Positions 5,935-43,639 of a stretch of DNA of 64,000 nt are shown in pieces. Numbering within the stretch: the first letter of the stretch is position 1; each line of letters opens with the position of its first letter. Origin of the DNA: Steroidobacteraceae bacterium (GTDB lineage Bacteria; Pseudomonadota; Gammaproteobacteria; Steroidobacterales; Steroidobacteraceae); contig JALORN010000001.1 of NCBI GenBank assembly GCA_025458905.1, positions 124,001 through 188,000 on the forward strand. The letters run 5' to 3'. The notes under the pieces are model-generated. The model made no database searches. It had not been told where the DNA came from and worked only from the letters and a program-made list of their open reading frames with translations. A program made the translations under genes and the position numbers.

Positions 5935-5978
5935 CGAAAATAAATCTGTCCCCTTTTCGAAAATAAATCTGTCCCCTT
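5935..5978 (+). repeat. AT-rich repeat, two direct tandem copies
   Basis: Two copies of CGAAAATAAATCTGTCCCC followed by a T-run start at 5935 and 5958 (23-bp period). The sequence is strikingly AT-rich for this genome and recurs at 35165-35257, with a related version at 43599-43639. It sits 8 bp past the stop codon of the minus-strand HD-domain gene, so it lies at a gene 3' end like the other loci. Confidence 0.9.
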
Positions 5979-33858: not shown

Positions 33859-34773
33859 ATGACCGATCGATGCCCTGCCGACACGGCACTCGCCCGCGAG
33901 ATCGATGCGACGCGCCGCGGCTTCGTCGTCACCGCCGGGCTCGCGGTGGCCGTGCTGCCGTGGGCTGCGTCGCGCAGCACGGCGGCGAACGCGAAGGCCG
34001 GCGCGGCCGGCAGTGGCGCCGACCCACGGCGTTCGAACACTGGCCTGGTCAAGCTGCTCGCTGCGCTCGACGGTGCGGCAGCGCCCTGGTGGTTCACCGG
34101 CACGCTCTACGGCGTGCCGCCCGGCAGGTCGCCCGTGCCGATGGTGGTCTGCGAGGGTTGCGAGGTCTACTTCGCGCGTCGGCTGCCGAACGGCGACTAC
34201 CTGCTGCGCGGCAACACGCTGACCTTCTTTCGCGACGTGGCGACGCGACGCTGGCTCGACGTCTTCGACAACCCCCTGACCGGGCGGCGCAGCGAGGTCC
34301 GCGCCAACGTGCTGGAGAGCGGCGCGGACTCGGGCTTCCTCTATCCCGCGGACGGCTCGGGCAGCTACTTCGTCGGCTCCATGGGCAAGACCGGGCAGCT
34401 GAACTTCAAGCCGCCGCCGCCGGATGCGAACCAGCCGCGGGGCGAGCTGCGCTGGGAAGAGTCGGGCGACCAGGTGTTCGCCACCACGAGCCGCAGCATC
34501 GCGACGCCGGCGCAGCCGTGGCTCGAGCTCTCGACCAACTTCGTGCCGGCGGGCGCGTTCTTCGATCCTGGCGTGGCGGCGGCGCCGGCGCACGGCACGG
34601 TCTCCTATCTCTCGCCGTGGCTGAAGTGGATGGCGATGGACGAGGTGCCGGGGCACCTGCTCTGGCACTGTGGTGCCTCGAAGCTGAAGTCGCTCGACGA
34701 CCTGCCGCCCGAGTACCGGCGACGTGCGGAGCAGGCGGGGCTCGCGCAGACGCTGGCCGGACCCCGGGCGTAG
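33859..34773 (+). CDS. DUF1838 family exported protein
   Basis: 304 residues. Tat-like N-terminus (TRRGFVVTAGLAVAVLPWAA). The body matches DUF1838: PWWFTGTLYGVPPG, WLDVFDNPLTGRRSEVRANV and LSPWLKWMAMDEVPGHLLWH. Function unknown; the family has a lipocalin-like beta-rich pattern. Divergent from the cupin-like gene, which hints at shared regulation. Confidence 0.8.
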   Translation: MTDRCPADTALAREIDATRRGFVVTAGLAVAVLPWAASRSTAANAKAGAAGSGADPRRSNTGLVKLLAALDGAAAPWWFTGTLYGVPPGRSPVPMVVCEGCEVYFARRLPNGDYLLRGNTLTFFRDVATRRWLDVFDNPLTGRRSEVRANVLESGADSGFLYPADGSGSYFVGSMGKTGQLNFKPPPPDANQPRGELRWEESGDQVFATTSRSIATPAQPWLELSTNFVPAGAFFDPGVAAAPAHGTVSYLSPWLKWMAMDEVPGHLLWHCGASKLKSLDDLPPEYRRRAEQAGLAQTLAGPRA

Positions 34774-34895
34774 CCGGCCGGTCGCGGCGGGGGCGCGCTG
34801 CGGGCGCCGCCGATCCTGACGGGTTCGTCATCGACTCCGGGGCCGGCGGGGCTTAACGTCGGAGGAGATTCCAGAGGGTTGCAACCGAGGGAGCC

Positions 34896-35162
34896 ATGGC
34901 CACTGGCTGGGCCGGGGACGGCGCCGTTCAAGACCAGATCGACGCGACCGTCAAGGACGGCATCCTGCGCGCCAGGAGCCGGCTCGCGGCCGGCCCATCG
35001 CTGTCGCATTGCGAGCACTGCGGCGCGGCCATCCCGGAGCCGCGGCGCCAGGCCTTGCCCGGCGTGCGCCTGTGCGTGCCCTGCCAAGACGCCCGCGACA
35101 AGGAAGACGCGGTGTTCAGCGGCTACAACCGCCGCGGCAGCAAGGACAGCCAGCTTCGCTAG
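34896..35162 (+). CDS. DksA/TraR-type C4 zinc-finger protein
   Basis: 88 residues. The zinc site is CEHCGAAIPEPRR with CVPCQDA; flanking N-terminal helix (QDQIDATVKDGILRARSRL) and C-terminal GYNRRGSKDSQLR fit the short YbiI-like DksA relatives. May bind RNA polymerase. GAGGGAG ribosome site. Its stop codon lies 2 bp before the AT-rich repeat cluster. Confidence 0.85.
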   Translation: MATGWAGDGAVQDQIDATVKDGILRARSRLAAGPSLSHCEHCGAAIPEPRRQALPGVRLCVPCQDARDKEDAVFSGYNRRGSKDSQLR

Positions 35163-35164
35163 GA

Positions 35165-35257
35165 GAAAAAGGGGACAGATTTATTTTCTGGAAGAAAAAA
35201 GGGGACAGATTTATTTTTCGCGGCGCGCCGCGAAAAATAAATCTGTCCCCTTTTTTC
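35165..35257. repeat. AT-rich repeat cluster with perfect 64-bp palindrome
   Basis: One direct copy of GAAAAAGGGGACAGATTTA (from 35165) is followed by a second copy (from 35194) that faces an inverted copy. Bases 35194-35257 form a perfect palindrome with 32-bp arms centred on 35225/35226 (CGCGGCG/CGCCGCG core). Same unit as at 5935-5978. It lies between the 3' ends of the DksA-type gene and the converging histidine kinase, and the kinase reads into it. It can act as a strong bidirectional hairpin with T/A-runs. Confidence 0.93.
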
Positions 35258-36509
35258 CGCGGCCACCGTGCACACCGAGCACGCGCGCGACGATCGCGAG
35301 GCCGATGCCATTGCCGCCCGTGCCGGTGTCGCGCGCCGGCGCGACGCGGAACAGTGGCTCGAAGATCTTCCTGAGGTACTCCTCGGGGACGCCGATGCCC
35401 TGGTCGCACACCCTCACGATGCACCGCCCGTCGGCGCGCGCCGACGACACGCGTACCCGGCCGTGGTCGGGCGAGTAGCGGATGGCGTTGCGGATCACGT
35501 TCTCGAACGCACTGCGCAGCAGGTCGGGGTCGCCGTCGACGACGAGGTCGTCCGGCCCCTCGACCCGGATCTCCACCTCGCGCGCCGCGGCCTCGATCGC
35601 GCAGTCCTGGGCGATGCGGCGCAGCAGGTCGGTGACGTTGACCCGGCCCACGCGCAGCGTCAGCGCCGGGTCGTTGACACTCGCGAGCCGCAGCATCTGG
35701 CCGATCAGCGCATCGAGCCGCTCGACGTCGCGCGCCAGCTGCTCGCTGACCGCCGGAGTGGCCTGCGAGGCGCCGAGCTCGATGCCCATGCGGATGCGCG
35801 TCAGCGGCGTGCGCAGCTCGTGCGACATGTCGCGGATCAGCTGCTGCTTCGACTGCAGCAGCTCGCGGATGTTGTCGGCCATCACGCGGAAGTCGCGCGC
35901 CAGCTGGCCGATCTCGTCGCCCCGACGCTCGAGCGCCGGGGCGACGCCCGAGTCGAGGTCGCCCCGCGCGATGCGGCCCGTGGCGTCGCGGAGCAGCTCG
36001 ATCGGCACGCTGATCGAGCGCGCCACCAGCAGGCAGACGATCGCGAACACCACCGCGGCCAGCGGCCAGAGCGTCAGCGCGATGCGCGGCTCGCCGAGCA
36101 GGCCGAACAGCCGCTGCGTCGGCACCACCACGACCAGGCGCCAGCGCCCGCCGTCCGGGCCGGTGAAGTCGCGGACGAAGCTGTTGCCGGCGCCGCCGGC
36201 GCGCGGTTGCGGCTGCTCGGCGGTGCCGCCGGTCGCCGTGCGCGTCACGCGTGCCCCGGCCGCGTCGAGCACCTCCAGCTGGATCGGGCGCAGGCGCGCA
36301 TTGGTCAGGGCCGCCCAGCCCTTGAGGCCGACCAGGCCCTGCGCGGCAGCGATGTCCTCGGCGTCGCTCGCGAGCTCGGCGATCCTCGGCAGCTGCAGGT
36401 TGCGCTGCTGCGCGGCCACCGCGAGCAGCGACGCACCGACCATCAGCAGCACCACCAGCGCGGTGGCACCGAAGAACGAGGCGAAGATCCGGACCAGCAG
36501 GCTGCGCAT
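35211..36509 (-). CDS. CpxA-like sensor histidine kinase, C-terminus replaced by repeat
   Basis: 432 residues. Membrane helix 1 (FFGATALVVLLMVGASLLAV), periplasmic sensor about residues 30-150, helix 2 (WPLAAVVFAIVCLLVARSIS), HAMP, HisKA with LIRDMSHELRTPLTRIRMGI, HATPase with NAIRYSPD, VCDQGIGVPEEYL and NGIGLAIVARVLGVHGG. After HGG the frame enters the AT-rich palindrome and ends RGKKGTDLFFAARREK, so the last beta strand usual in this fold (roughly 15-20 residues) is lost. Probably pairs with the regulator at 36570-37259. Activity may be reduced or normal. Confidence 0.9.
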   Translation of the reverse strand: MRSLLVRIFASFFGATALVVLLMVGASLLAVAAQQRNLQLPRIAELASDAEDIAAAQGLVGLKGWAALTNARLRPIQLEVLDAAGARVTRTATGGTAEQPQPRAGGAGNSFVRDFTGPDGGRWRLVVVVPTQRLFGLLGEPRIALTLWPLAAVVFAIVCLLVARSISVPIELLRDATGRIARGDLDSGVAPALERRGDEIGQLARDFRVMADNIRELLQSKQQLIRDMSHELRTPLTRIRMGIELGASQATPAVSEQLARDVERLDALIGQMLRLASVNDPALTLRVGRVNVTDLLRRIAQDCAIEAAAREVEIRVEGPDDLVVDGDPDLLRSAFENVIRNAIRYSPDHGRVRVSSARADGRCIVRVCDQGIGVPEEYLRKIFEPLFRVAPARDTGTGGNGIGLAIVARVLGVHGGRGKKGTDLFFAARREK

Positions 36510-36569: not shown

Positions 36570-37259
36570 TCAGCCGGCGACCAGCTGGTAGCCGGTGCCG
36601 CGGATGCTGGCGATCGAGGCGCGCGCTCCGGCCTGGGCGAGCTTGCCGCGGATGTGGCTGACGTGGGTGTCGACGCTGCGGTCGTTGGGCAGCAGCCGCC
36701 GCCCGAGCACCTCCTCGCAGAGCTTGTCGCGCGACACCGCCCGGCCCGGGTTGCGCATCAGCACCTCGAGCAGCCGCAGCTCGGCGCTGGTCAACGGCAG
36801 CGTCGCGGACCCGGCCCGTGCCAGGCGGCGCGCCGGCTCGAGGTGCAGGTCACCGACCGCCAGCACGGCCTCGACCGCGGCGGCAGGCGAGCGCGCCCGG
36901 CGCAGGATCGCGCGCACGCGCGCCAGCAGCTCGCGCGGGTTGAAGGGCTTGGCGAGGTAGTCGTCGGCGCCGAGCTCGAGGCCGCGGACCCGGTCGACGT
37001 CGTCGCCGCGCGCGGTGAGGATCAGCACCGGGCACTCGCTGTAGCGCCGCAGCTCGACCAGCACCTCGAACCCCGACTTCAGCGGCAGCATCACGTCGAG
37101 GATCGCGAGGTCGAACTCGCGCGTCCGCAGGGTGCGCGCGGCAGCCTCGCCGTCGTGCACCGCCTCGACCCGCAGGCCCTGCTCGCCGAGGAAGTTCGAC
37201 AGCATCGCGCACAGCTCGCGATCGTCTTCGACCAGCAGGATCCTCGCGTCGGCGGACAT
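36570..37259 (-). CDS. CpxR-like OmpR-family response regulator
   Basis: 229 residues. Receiver domain with ILLVEDDRELCAML, phospho-acceptor Asp in LAILDVMLPLKSGFEV, Thr in LILTARGDD and Lys in DYLAKPFNPREL. C-terminal winged helix (LTSAELRLLEVLMRNPGRAVSRDKL, RSVDTHVSHIRGKL, IRGTGYQLV). The FNPRELLARVRAILRR linker and LLPNDRSVDTHVSHIR resemble CpxR. Start MSADARIL chosen over a longer frame. The kinase follows 60 bp downstream. Confidence 0.9.
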   Translation of the reverse strand: MSADARILLVEDDRELCAMLSNFLGEQGLRVEAVHDGEAAARTLRTREFDLAILDVMLPLKSGFEVLVELRRYSECPVLILTARGDDVDRVRGLELGADDYLAKPFNPRELLARVRAILRRARSPAAAVEAVLAVGDLHLEPARRLARAGSATLPLTSAELRLLEVLMRNPGRAVSRDKLCEEVLGRRLLPNDRSVDTHVSHIRGKLAQAGARASIASIRGTGYQLVAG

Positions 37260-37294
37260 GGCAGGTGGATGCCCGGCAACGACCCGGGAGGGCC

Positions 37295-37435
37295 CTTTAC
37301 GGAATCCGGCGGGCGCCCGGACACCGTCGGCGGAGACTGTAAAGCAAATCCGCGATGCGGGGCGGCCGGGGCGCCCTGCGAGGCCGCCCTTGGCCGCGCC
37401 AGGGGGCGGCCCCGACGATGTAAAGAAATGATGAG
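37295..37435. promoter_or_regulatory. Three GTAAAG half-sites in the divergent promoter region
   Basis: GTAAAG occurs at 37339-37344 and 37430-37435, and inverted (CTTTAC) at 37295-37300, all between the CpxR-like gene and the CHRD operon. The established CpxR box is GTAAA-N5-GTAAA; only half-sites are seen, so this is a suggestion of autoregulation and control of the operon. Confidence 0.35.
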
Positions 37436-37485
37436 ACCCCCGGCCCGATCTCGACTTCCCCTGGCCCGGCCCGCACTCTTGGCAG

Positions 37486-38124
37486 ATGCCCCGGTTCCAC
37501 CCCGTGTCCCGCCGCGCTCGCGCGCTCCCGGCCCCCGCAGGCCGTCGAGTGTCGTGGCTGCCGGTGCTGCTCGCCTGCGGGGCGGCGGCGCTGCTGGCAT
37601 CCGGCCAGGTCCGCGCGCAGGTGCCGGGGAACGTCCGCAGCGCCGGTCCGGCCGCGGCCGGCACCGCGAAGGCCGCCACGGACACGGCCGCGACCGCCGG
37701 CGCGGCGACGTCCCCGGCGCTGGCCGGTGCGACCGGCAAGAAGCGCTATTTCGTCGCCGACATCTCCTGGGCCAACAACACCTACTACACGCCGAGCGAG
37801 GCGAAGGGCGCGGCGGAGTTCGAGCTCGACGTCGCGAGCAAGACGCTGCGCTGGGTCCTCACCTACCAGGACCTCTCGAGCCCGCCGACCAAGATCACGC
37901 TGCACGCGCCCGCCCAGCCCGGCGCGACCGGCGCCGCGATCCTGGACCTCTCCCCGGGCGGGCCGAAGAGCCCGGCGCGCGGCGAGGGCAAGCTCAGCGA
38001 CGCACAGGTCGAGTACCTGCTGACCGGCTGGTCGTACGCGCTGGTGACGACCCGCAAGTATCCCCAGGGCGAGGCGCGCGGCCAGCTCGACCGCGTGCGG
38101 CAGGCGACGCCGGCGTTCCAGTGA
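37486..38124 (+). CDS. Exported CHRD-domain protein
   Basis: 212 residues. N-terminal export signal (SWLPVLLACGAAALLASGQVRAQ), Ala/Thr-rich linker, then CHRD domain from about residue 85 (FVADISWANNTYY, LRWVLTYQDLSSPPTKITLHAP, VTTRKYPQGEARGQL). First gene of a run of five exported-protein genes; divergent from the CpxR-like gene. Confidence 0.82.
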   Translation: MPRFHPVSRRARALPAPAGRRVSWLPVLLACGAAALLASGQVRAQVPGNVRSAGPAAAGTAKAATDTAATAGAATSPALAGATGKKRYFVADISWANNTYYTPSEAKGAAEFELDVASKTLRWVLTYQDLSSPPTKITLHAPAQPGATGAAILDLSPGGPKSPARGEGKLSDAQVEYLLTGWSYALVTTRKYPQGEARGQLDRVRQATPAFQ

Positions 38125-42426: not shown

Positions 42427-43601
42427 CGCGAGCGGCCGGTGCGCGCGTGCGCGTCGCGGCGCTGCTGGTCGCCGACCTGCTGGCCGTCGCCGCGGCCGCG
42501 GCCGCAGGCTCGCCGCCGGCGGAGCCGGCGCCTGCCGGGGCGGGTGCGGGCGCCGGGGTCGTGTCCGCCGATGCGCGCGGCGAGGTGCCCGCGGGCCTGC
42601 GGCTGCGACCCGTCGGCGACGAGGAGATCCTCACCGACGAGCGCGGCCATTCGCTCTACACCACCGACGAGGACGCGACGCCGAACGTCTCGACCTGCGT
42701 CGACGCCTGCGCCAAGGCCTGGCCGCCTGCGGCCGCGCCCTCGGGCGCAGCACCGGCCGGCGACTTCACGCTGGTGCAGCGCGCCGACGGCAGCCGCCAG
42801 TGGGCCTATCGCGGCAAGCCACTCTACTCGTTCGCGCGCGAGGAATATCCCGGCGGCATCTTCGGCGACGGCGTCGCCAACCGCTGGCGGCTCGCGTTCC
42901 GCGCGCTGCGCACCCCGCCTGGCATCGGCGTGATGAAGGCGCCGATGGGCCGCATCCTCGTCAACGAGCGCGGCCAGCCGCTGTTCACGCCGGCCGCGGG
43001 CAGCGCCACCGCCGGCAAGGGCTGCGACGCGAAGTGCCTAGTCGAGTGGTCGCCGGTCCAGGCGCCCGCGCTCGCCCGTGAGCAGGGGAACTGGTCGCTG
43101 GTCGCCCGGCCCGACGGTACCCGCCAGTGGGCCTATCGCCGGCAGCCGCTCTATGCCTTCCGCGCCGACCGTCGCGTCTCCGACCTCAAGGGCTTCGAGC
43201 CGCGGCACGAGGGCTGGCAGCCGATCGTCGTGCAGCCCGAGCTGCCCGCGCCGGCCTGGGCGACGCTGGTCAAGACGGACGTCGGCCAGGTGTTCGCCGA
43301 CGCCAAGGGCCTGACCGTCTATGCGTTCAACGGTGACCTCGAGAAGATCAAGCGCCTGATGTGCGACGAGGCGTGCCTGCAGCGGGCCTGGACGCGCCTC
43401 GAAGCCGACGCCGACAGTGCGCCGGTCGGCGACTGGTCGGTCAAGAAGGCGCCTGACGGCAAGCGCTACTGGGCCTATCGCGGCGCACCGCTGTACCGCT
43501 TCCACCAGGACCGGGCGCCCGGCGAGGTGCTCGGCAACCAGTTCGCGGCGAGCGCCGGCATCTTCGGCAACTGGTCGCCGATCGTCCGCATGCCCTACTA
43601 A
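42423..43601 (+). CDS. Exported protein with three PF03640-type repeats
   Basis: 392 residues; signal-like N-terminus (VAALLVADLLAVAAAAAAG), then three repeats of the secreted lipoprotein repeat, marked by ILTDERGHSLYTTDED with CVDACAKAWPP; ILVNERGQPLFTPAA with CDAKCLVEWSP; and VFADAKGLTVYAFNGD with CDEACLQRAW. Each is followed by RQWAYRGKPLY, RQWAYRRQPLY or RYWAYRGAPLY. Overlaps the DUF1552 gene (ATGA). Its stop codon is the outer end of the 43599 palindrome. Confidence 0.82.
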   Translation: MTRAAGARVRVAALLVADLLAVAAAAAAGSPPAEPAPAGAGAGAGVVSADARGEVPAGLRLRPVGDEEILTDERGHSLYTTDEDATPNVSTCVDACAKAWPPAAAPSGAAPAGDFTLVQRADGSRQWAYRGKPLYSFAREEYPGGIFGDGVANRWRLAFRALRTPPGIGVMKAPMGRILVNERGQPLFTPAAGSATAGKGCDAKCLVEWSPVQAPALAREQGNWSLVARPDGTRQWAYRRQPLYAFRADRRVSDLKGFEPRHEGWQPIVVQPELPAPAWATLVKTDVGQVFADAKGLTVYAFNGDLEKIKRLMCDEACLQRAWTRLEADADSAPVGDWSVKKAPDGKRYWAYRGAPLYRFHQDRAPGEVLGNQFAASAGIFGNWSPIVRMPY

Positions 43602-43639
43602 ATCTGATTTATTTTCCGCAGGAAAATAAATCAGATTTA
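43599..43639. repeat. Perfect 19-bp-arm palindrome between convergent genes, variant of the AT-rich repeat
   Basis: Arms TAAATCTGATTTATTTTCC and its exact complement are separated by GCA. The unit shares AAATAAATC and flanking TTTTCC/GGAAAA with the other two loci, but has AGATTT where they have TGTCCCC. The outer TAA of each arm is the stop codon of the gene on that strand (PF03640 protein on plus, AMP-ligase on minus). It should work as a bidirectional terminator. Confidence 0.9.

Follow-up and report, generated by a model that had tools for sequence, protein, structure and literature searches.

Perfect palindromes of a transposase-linked repeat at gene ends in a Steroidobacteraceae bacterium, one of which encodes the end of a histidine kinase

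The palindrome and the kinase that ends in it

We analyzed a window of 64,000 nucleotides (positions 124,001 to 188,000 of contig JALORN010000001.1) from the assembly of a Steroidobacteraceae bacterium, GCA_025458905.1. Within it, a DksA/TraR-type zinc-finger gene and a CpxA-like sensor kinase gene converge on a small array of a repeat unit, GGGGACAGATTTATTTT. See Table 1 for the coordinates of all features. A first-pass annotation had described two direct units and one inverted unit here, along with a perfect palindrome that has 32-bp arms, and we confirmed both from the sequence. The stop codon of the DksA/TraR gene lies 8 nt ahead of the first unit. The window holds five copies of the unit, all exact in a search that allowed up to three mismatches, and 100 shuffled sequences held none. 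The palindrome is the longest of five in the window (arm at least 11, loop at most 8), and five Markov shuffles of the window gave 0–3 such palindromes each. The unit also recurs at two further gene ends, as had been claimed. One is a cluster of two minus-strand copies (5937–5976) located 10 nt from a minus-strand stop, and the other is a degenerate palindrome (43599–43639) that spans precisely from one stop codon to the other of two convergent ORFs. An Rfam search of positions 34500–36000 gave no matches at the gathering threshold.

Table 1. Positions of repeat units, palindromes and neighboring genes in the window
Feature	Position	Strand	Remarks
DksA/TraR C4 zinc-finger gene	34896..35162	+	NF008243, 146.6 bits (cut-off 96)
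Unit copy 1, outer, without inverted partner	35171..35187	+	exact match; A-tract 35166-35170 before it
Perfect 64-bp palindrome	35194..35257	none	32-bp arms, no loop; terminator-like on both strands
Unit copy 2, left arm of the palindrome	35201..35217	+	exact match
16-nt spacer	35218..35233	none	perfect palindrome in its own right
Unit copy 3, right arm	35234..35250	-	T-tract 35251-35256 next
CpxA-like sensor histidine kinase	35211..36509	-	HAMP, HisKA, shortened HATPase_c
Repeat-encoded kinase tail GKKGTDLFFAARREK and stop TAA	35211..35258	-
Response regulator ORF upstream of the kinase	36570..37739	-	start provisional
Unit copy in -- cluster behind minus-strand gene	5937..5953	-
Second unit copy of the same cluster	5960..5976	-
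Degenerate relative with TCTGATTTATTTT core	43599..43639	none	19-bp perfect arms, 3-nt loop

The kinase ORF runs through ...HGGR and then continues as GKKGTDLFFAARREK to its stop, with the last 15 residues encoded by the repeat and the TAA sitting in the far arm of the palindrome. The repeat-coded residues start at 418 (boundary 417/418 of 432), and the HATPase_c alignment reaches profile position 90 of 111. Among the matches listed, all non-identical homologues from the genus search align only to query residue 416–418, and those from the family search only to residue 416–419 of 432. We fetched 27 homologue loci, 19 from the genus search (one being another kinase of the same genome) and 8 from the family search. 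Between the G2 box and the stop lie 38–94 residues in 27/27 of them versus 34 in the window kinase, and a GL-x-hydrophobic strand present in all 27 is absent from the window kinase. This bears out the claim that the kinase ends inside the palindrome and lacks its last strand. The homologues do not end at the equivalent place. A close orthologue with an intact tail for a before-and-after alignment was sought among 24 genomes of the genus and 200 of the family, and nothing above 44% identity was found.

Outward of the palindrome's right arm, the sequence ttttttc mirrors the left linker, ctggaagaaaaaa, before kinase codons take over. Because these seven bases are shared with the expected mirror linker, a deletion step suggests itself. 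In the simplest history, the starting state would have been an ancestral ++-- array (direct units as +, inverted units as -), from which a single deletion would have taken out the right-hand outer unit, the rest of the intergenic sequence and the final kinase codons, leaving ++- and a kinase that ends in the palindrome. The kinase was therefore probably shortened by a deletion reaching from the element into the gene rather than by simple insertion. In a separate locus (L050), the right-hand ORF ends ...EEKGT within the outer palindrome arm.

Copies at gene ends across the genome and in relatives

The unit is found well beyond this locus. The genome (G000; 4.28 Mb in 109 contigs, 86% complete) contains 162 copies at up to two mismatches, and a reversed-pattern control gave none. 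The stretches around 100 of the 162 copies, together with those around all 45 exact G-variant copies, resolve into 67 clusters: 24 of type +-, 11 ++--, nine +, seven ++, five --, four +--, four -, two ++- and one +---. A +- pair is contained in 42 of these and the other 25 have a single orientation; the two ++- clusters include the window locus. Orientation is fixed outward, with no - unit preceding a + unit in any of the 67. The general layout of a pair is an A-tract, GGGGACRGATTTATTTT, a spacer, the inverted copy and a T-tract. At L007:1501-1570 and L010:1501-1591, a truncated 13-nt piece (ccGGATTTRTTTT) stands in tandem behind some units, perhaps as a product of slippage.

Twelve of the 67 clusters are found at contig ends (L013, L023, L024, L027, L041, L042, L043, L045, L049, L058, L061 (2586) and L074), and three pairs of them (L024/L058, L027/L049 and L043/L061) each lead into one and the same palindrome, so these hairpins seem to be where the assembly broke. 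Some contig-end clusters are thus probably two ends of one palindrome, and the number of separate loci is somewhat below 67.

The clusters sit close to the ends of genes. Stop codons were placed by a caller that relies on codon usage learned from the window and overlooks short genes, the window's DksA gene among them; the two window clusters were excluded. A called stop lies within 45 nt at 74 of 106 G-facing cluster sides (median 8 nt), with none nearby at the remaining 32, and the T-facing sides of single-orientation clusters have a called stop in 4 of 24 cases. Outer A-rich and T-rich tracts flank 39 of the 42 pairs. On both strands the window palindrome has a folding energy of -50 to -53 kcal/mol (z -8.7 to -10.8), and each strand carries three overlapping terminator registers (6 versus 0.5 in shuffles, counting consensus matches only). 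A stem-loop followed by a T-tract is present on the transcribed strand. The pairs thus have the shape of bidirectional terminators, and the hairpins probably stop transcription on both strands, in which case they would serve convergent genes as bidirectional intrinsic terminators. Like such terminators, they combine an A-tract, a GC-containing stem and a T-tract on both strands between convergent genes; unlike them, they have a stem that reaches ~30 bp or longer, and their sequence is linked to a transposase.

Two convergent gene pairs allow a comparison with relatives. Between citrate synthase (gltA) and its neighbor, the 80-nt gap in our genome is pure element. Loci were in hand for 29 of the 37 relatives with a match, and in 27 of these 29 the gap measures -4 to 49 nt; the exceptions are L245 (-1332, stop not placed) and L256 (407 nt). 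Gaps of 20–49 nt occur in 18 relatives, and the longest perfect arm in them was 2–8 bp in 16 of 16 tested, versus 39 bp in our genome. The gap between ettA and purL is 132 nt in our genome. Both genes lie convergently in the fetched stretch in 8 of 28 relatives, with gaps of 4, 6, 10, 51, 64, 800, 1307 and 1336 nt, and the evidence from this pair is weaker because the gaps are scattered and only 8/28 relatives are comparable. Judging from these loci, relatives that share the two gene pairs mostly appear to have short, element-free gaps, in most cases at gltA and in several at ettA/purL.

A bracketed Y1 transposase and its relatives

A search for transposases detected a single Y1_Tnp gene in the genome (E 7.4e-14, above cut-off; PF01797 at 51.6–53.6 bits, cut-off 23). 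The first-pass annotation had suggested looking for a Y1 transposase linked to copies, and this one is bracketed by units, with a +- pair on each side. The ORF (G000 C84:124750-125487) has readable HVH and YVELNP (Y---NP) motifs and ends inside a unit; like the kinase, it closes with repeat-coded residues (...EKGTDLISRPEK, L031:1129-1170). A C-terminal HTH-like extension is a mark of TIRYT subclass 2.1; in our protein, Y1_Tnp is the only Pfam match at E ≤ 1e-3. The score against NF047646 (REP_Tyr_transpos) is 65.8 bits, below the cut-off of 80. Units of the form GGGGACAG fit the published consensus GGGGWSAS, and the left outer unit at the transposase is a GGGGACGG variant whose last letters depart from it. 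No GT[AG]G-tagged hairpin was seen at the transposase ends in the L031 sequence. A contig search with the transposase as query gave one distant match at 36% identity. The assembly is 86% complete, so other transposases, or the SbcD discussed below, could be in its gaps.

Among the 296 genomes of the order that were searched, 98, including our own, encode homologues of the transposase (1e-20). We built a tree of 30 transposase loci, comprising 29 homologues and our own gene, with end labels assigned by hand. One clade (100/98), with GGGGAC ends, unites our transposase with the three homologues closest to it (L093, L094 and L095), and the 11 transposases with GGGGTC-type ends form another (100/100). 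Bracketing by inverted repeats on both sides was found for our gene, L094, L095 and L104, and L093 has one clear unit with a degenerate partner on the other side. L104 (genome G083) likewise has GGGGAC ends, yet the tree places it outside the GGGGAC clade, and G083 contains one exact copy. Two of the 30 loci carry no assignable end label. A further 12 of the 30 (L096, L097, L099, L101–L103 and L105–L110) have GGTG-type ends, either GGTGTCAGGTTTATTT or GGTGCC-type, which depart from GGGGWSAS and are possibly further types of terminal inverted repeat (TIR).

The exact sequence GGGGACAGATYTATTT occurs in 11 of the 296 genomes and in none of the other 285. Our genome has 75 copies, G129 has 73, G033 has 71 and G229 has 15, and these four genomes (15–75 exact copies) are those with a GGGGAC-clade transposase. 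Lesser counts were obtained for G058 (8), G045 (4), G071 (2), G092 (2) and for G083, G243 and G192 (1 each). G058, G045, G071 and G092, all of f10, have copies without a transposase match at 1e-20. A search with the R pattern found it in 3 of 60 genomes including our own, with 15 copies in G058, and in 0 of 23 same-genus genomes.

On this evidence, the unit is quite probably the TIR of a Y1/HUH transposase of the TIRYT type, and the dispersed pairs would be REPIN-like, non-autonomous miniatures mobilized in trans. The TIRYT would be what transposes the units. The earlier guess of a mobile REP/MITE-like element or a spread terminator family agrees well with 162 copies, a bracketed Y1 transposase and a terminator-like geometry at gene ends.

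The kind of element is known, as TIRYTs, GGGGWSAS ends and TIR families are already in the literature. Di Nocera et al. 2013 (PMC3733652) describe TIRYTs as RAYT-like Y1 genes bracketed by inverted repeats with GGGGWSAS (the TIRtron), describe moderately abundant TIR families, and consider TIRYTs possibly less productive than RAYTs; for their subclass 2.1, Quentin et al. 2018 (PMC6006769) report no REP-like sequences. Our elements look like this kind more than any other, and their copies look like miniature REPIN-like derivatives rather than canonical GTAG REPs. They share with the TIRYT/TIRtron the bracketed RAYT-like Y1 gene, ends that fit GGGGWSAS, and repeats that occur as singles, dimers and clusters; they differ in their abundance (162 copies), in forming paired hairpins, many with perfectly palindromic spacers peculiar to the locus, and in having nested arrays that are mirrored. 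REPINs, whose spacers show compensatory changes (PMC3116915), and RAYTs (PMC2817692) offer a second comparison. Like REPINs and GTAG REPs, our pairs are inverted doublets of ~70 nt with a set spacer length, variable spacer sequence and compensatory changes, located at 3' gene ends and with ends that supply stop codons, a property of REP ends that PMC3733652 also mentions. Unlike them, they have no GTAG head, the single unit is not self-complementary, and at many loci of our genome the whole spacer forms a perfect stem. They resemble MITEs in being short, terminally inverted, non-autonomous and present in many copies beside one apparently autonomous copy, with the difference that the transposase is Y1, not DDE. 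Literature searches for GGGGACAGA with transposase and for GGGGTCAGA with repeat/palindrom returned papers that were off-topic by title and abstract start. Among the papers listed by further searches, we recognized no account of mirrored locus-specific palindromes, of nesting at their centers or of a terminator role for such elements, although their absence from the literature is unproven.

Mirrored arms and the origin of the hairpins

The two arms of a pair resemble each other more than they resemble other copies. Identical arms were found in 23 of 42 pairs, compared with a mean of 9.0 for shuffled partners and a maximum of 18 in 10,000 shuffles. Spacers were divided into a short class (<20 nt; 11 of 41 in our genome, one pair with masked bases being left out) and a long class (≥20 nt), the medians of which are similar, at 31–39 nt, in six genome sets. 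Long spacers are fully palindromic in 17 of 30 cases in our genome and not in the other 13. Among fetched loci of the other genomes, the count is 2/4 in G129 and 0/26 elsewhere (G033 0/10, G229 0/3, f10 0/8, G276/G238/G290 0/5). In 22 pairs selected for an inner stem of at least 4 bp that is perfect up to a loop of at most 8, so that the stems are perfect by criterion, we counted 5 mismatches over 659 bp, all of them in the units. The inner stems are unrelated between loci except for L018/L059/L021 and L014/L016, and the differences within these groups occur in both arms. We rejected the idea that the stems are copies of one shared spacer, since those two groups alone beat the shuffled maximum among 153 stem pairs.

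In nested ++-- arrays the mirror symmetry extends to the linkers: 18 of 19 loci have the same linker in both arms (11/11 in our genome, 6/7 in G033, 1/1 in G129), and most linkers differ from locus to locus. The linker of the seventh G033 array has one mismatch in 20. In five of the seven G033 arrays (L172, L174, L180, L181 and L182) the outer units belong to the family GGGGACATGCCTATTT and the inner units to another, for which the simplest account is insertion of the inner element at the center of the outer palindrome. At L143 in G129, the mirrored flanks are of another repeat that fits a GTAG-type REP, a label that is our reading.

New copies would enter at the tip of DNA hairpins, and copying of one arm onto the other would homogenize the arms, most simply by template switching during replication. 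Such copying would rewrite one arm, its spacer and part of the flank from the opposite arm, and it might proceed either by template switching or by hairpin processing by the transposase itself. Long palindromes are cut by SbcCD, so its absence would be permissive, although this is a correlation only. No match to SbcD (TIGR00619) was found in our genome (86% complete), one of 30 lineage genomes searched; 1/30 scored above cut-off and 5/30 gave any match, and of 14 control genomes 13 matched, 8 of them above cut-off. The 25/30 lineage genomes without a match at E ≤ 0.001 hint at a possible lineage-wide loss. Arm copying is perhaps tolerated as SbcD, and so possibly SbcCD, seems absent. For the mirroring, template switching is our first choice; it is reported to create and repair perfect hairpins (PMC8794818; see also PMC7202029). 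Part of the arm identity could come from selection for hairpins, to which compensatory changes in REP-type hairpins have been ascribed (PMC2817692, PMC3116915). Put together, a Y1 miniature may enter the centers of dyads, arm copying may rewrite the arms, and a lineage without SbcCD may accumulate perfect, locus-unique terminator hairpins that sometimes erode gene ends. We regard this full chain of events as plausible but tentative.

It is unlikely that units were instead added singly behind stop codons, with the variable inner stem being ancestral intergenic sequence or a native terminator. Such a history agrees with units that lie right beside stop codons (a median of 8 nt away where a stop was called) and leave hardly any old intergenic DNA outside, with the 25/67 clusters of one orientation, and with gaps in relatives (mostly 0–49 nt) near the longer inner spacers in length (26–41 nt). 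However, spacer medians of 36–39 nt recur in G033, f10 and G276/G238/G290, two pairs of G276 loci share spacer sequence (L259 twice; L283/L285), two-family nesting at the five G033 loci (L172, L174, L180–L182) requires insertion at the center, and perfect arms are just 2–8 bp in the gaps of relatives (16 of 18). That the palindromes are artefacts of metagenome assembly is barely credible. Two distinct, genuine genes flank them, in the order found in relatives, and nested mirrored arrays also occur in G129 and G033 (in the latter, 12 fetched stretches on one 4.65-Mb contig); the 12/67 clusters at contig ends do show that assembly struggled.

We also considered whether the hairpins are a host terminator family, spread or kept by selection or gene conversion, with the link to a transposase being coincidental. 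Position at gene ends, A/T tracts and a two-strand terminator shape would all be expected of it, and some genomes do have copies without a transposase match. It is nevertheless very improbable, as the ends follow transposase clades across genomes, units are nested inside other repeats in G129 and G033, and the exact unit is missing from all 23 same-genus relatives searched, which is odd for such a family. A canonical GTAG REP/REPIN family with an ordinary RAYT would account for an inverted doublet of ~70 nt, a bracketed RAYT-like gene, a location at 3' gene ends and compensatory changes, which PMC3116915 and PMC3733652 report for REPINs. We rejected it as a candidate: GGGGACRGATTTATTTT has no GT[AG]G tag and is not self-complementary. 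GTAG and CGTC tags are both absent, the single unit is no palindrome, and the ends fit GGGGWSAS, the TIRYT motif (PMC3733652), making this reading more improbable still.

In this genome, whole locus-specific spacers and linkers are mirrored base for base and a single matching transposase was detected, so selection and arm copying can be tested against each other. The copies in this genome suggest that a TIR family can attain REP-like copy numbers, and the window kinase would be a concrete case in which such an element ends a signaling protein early.
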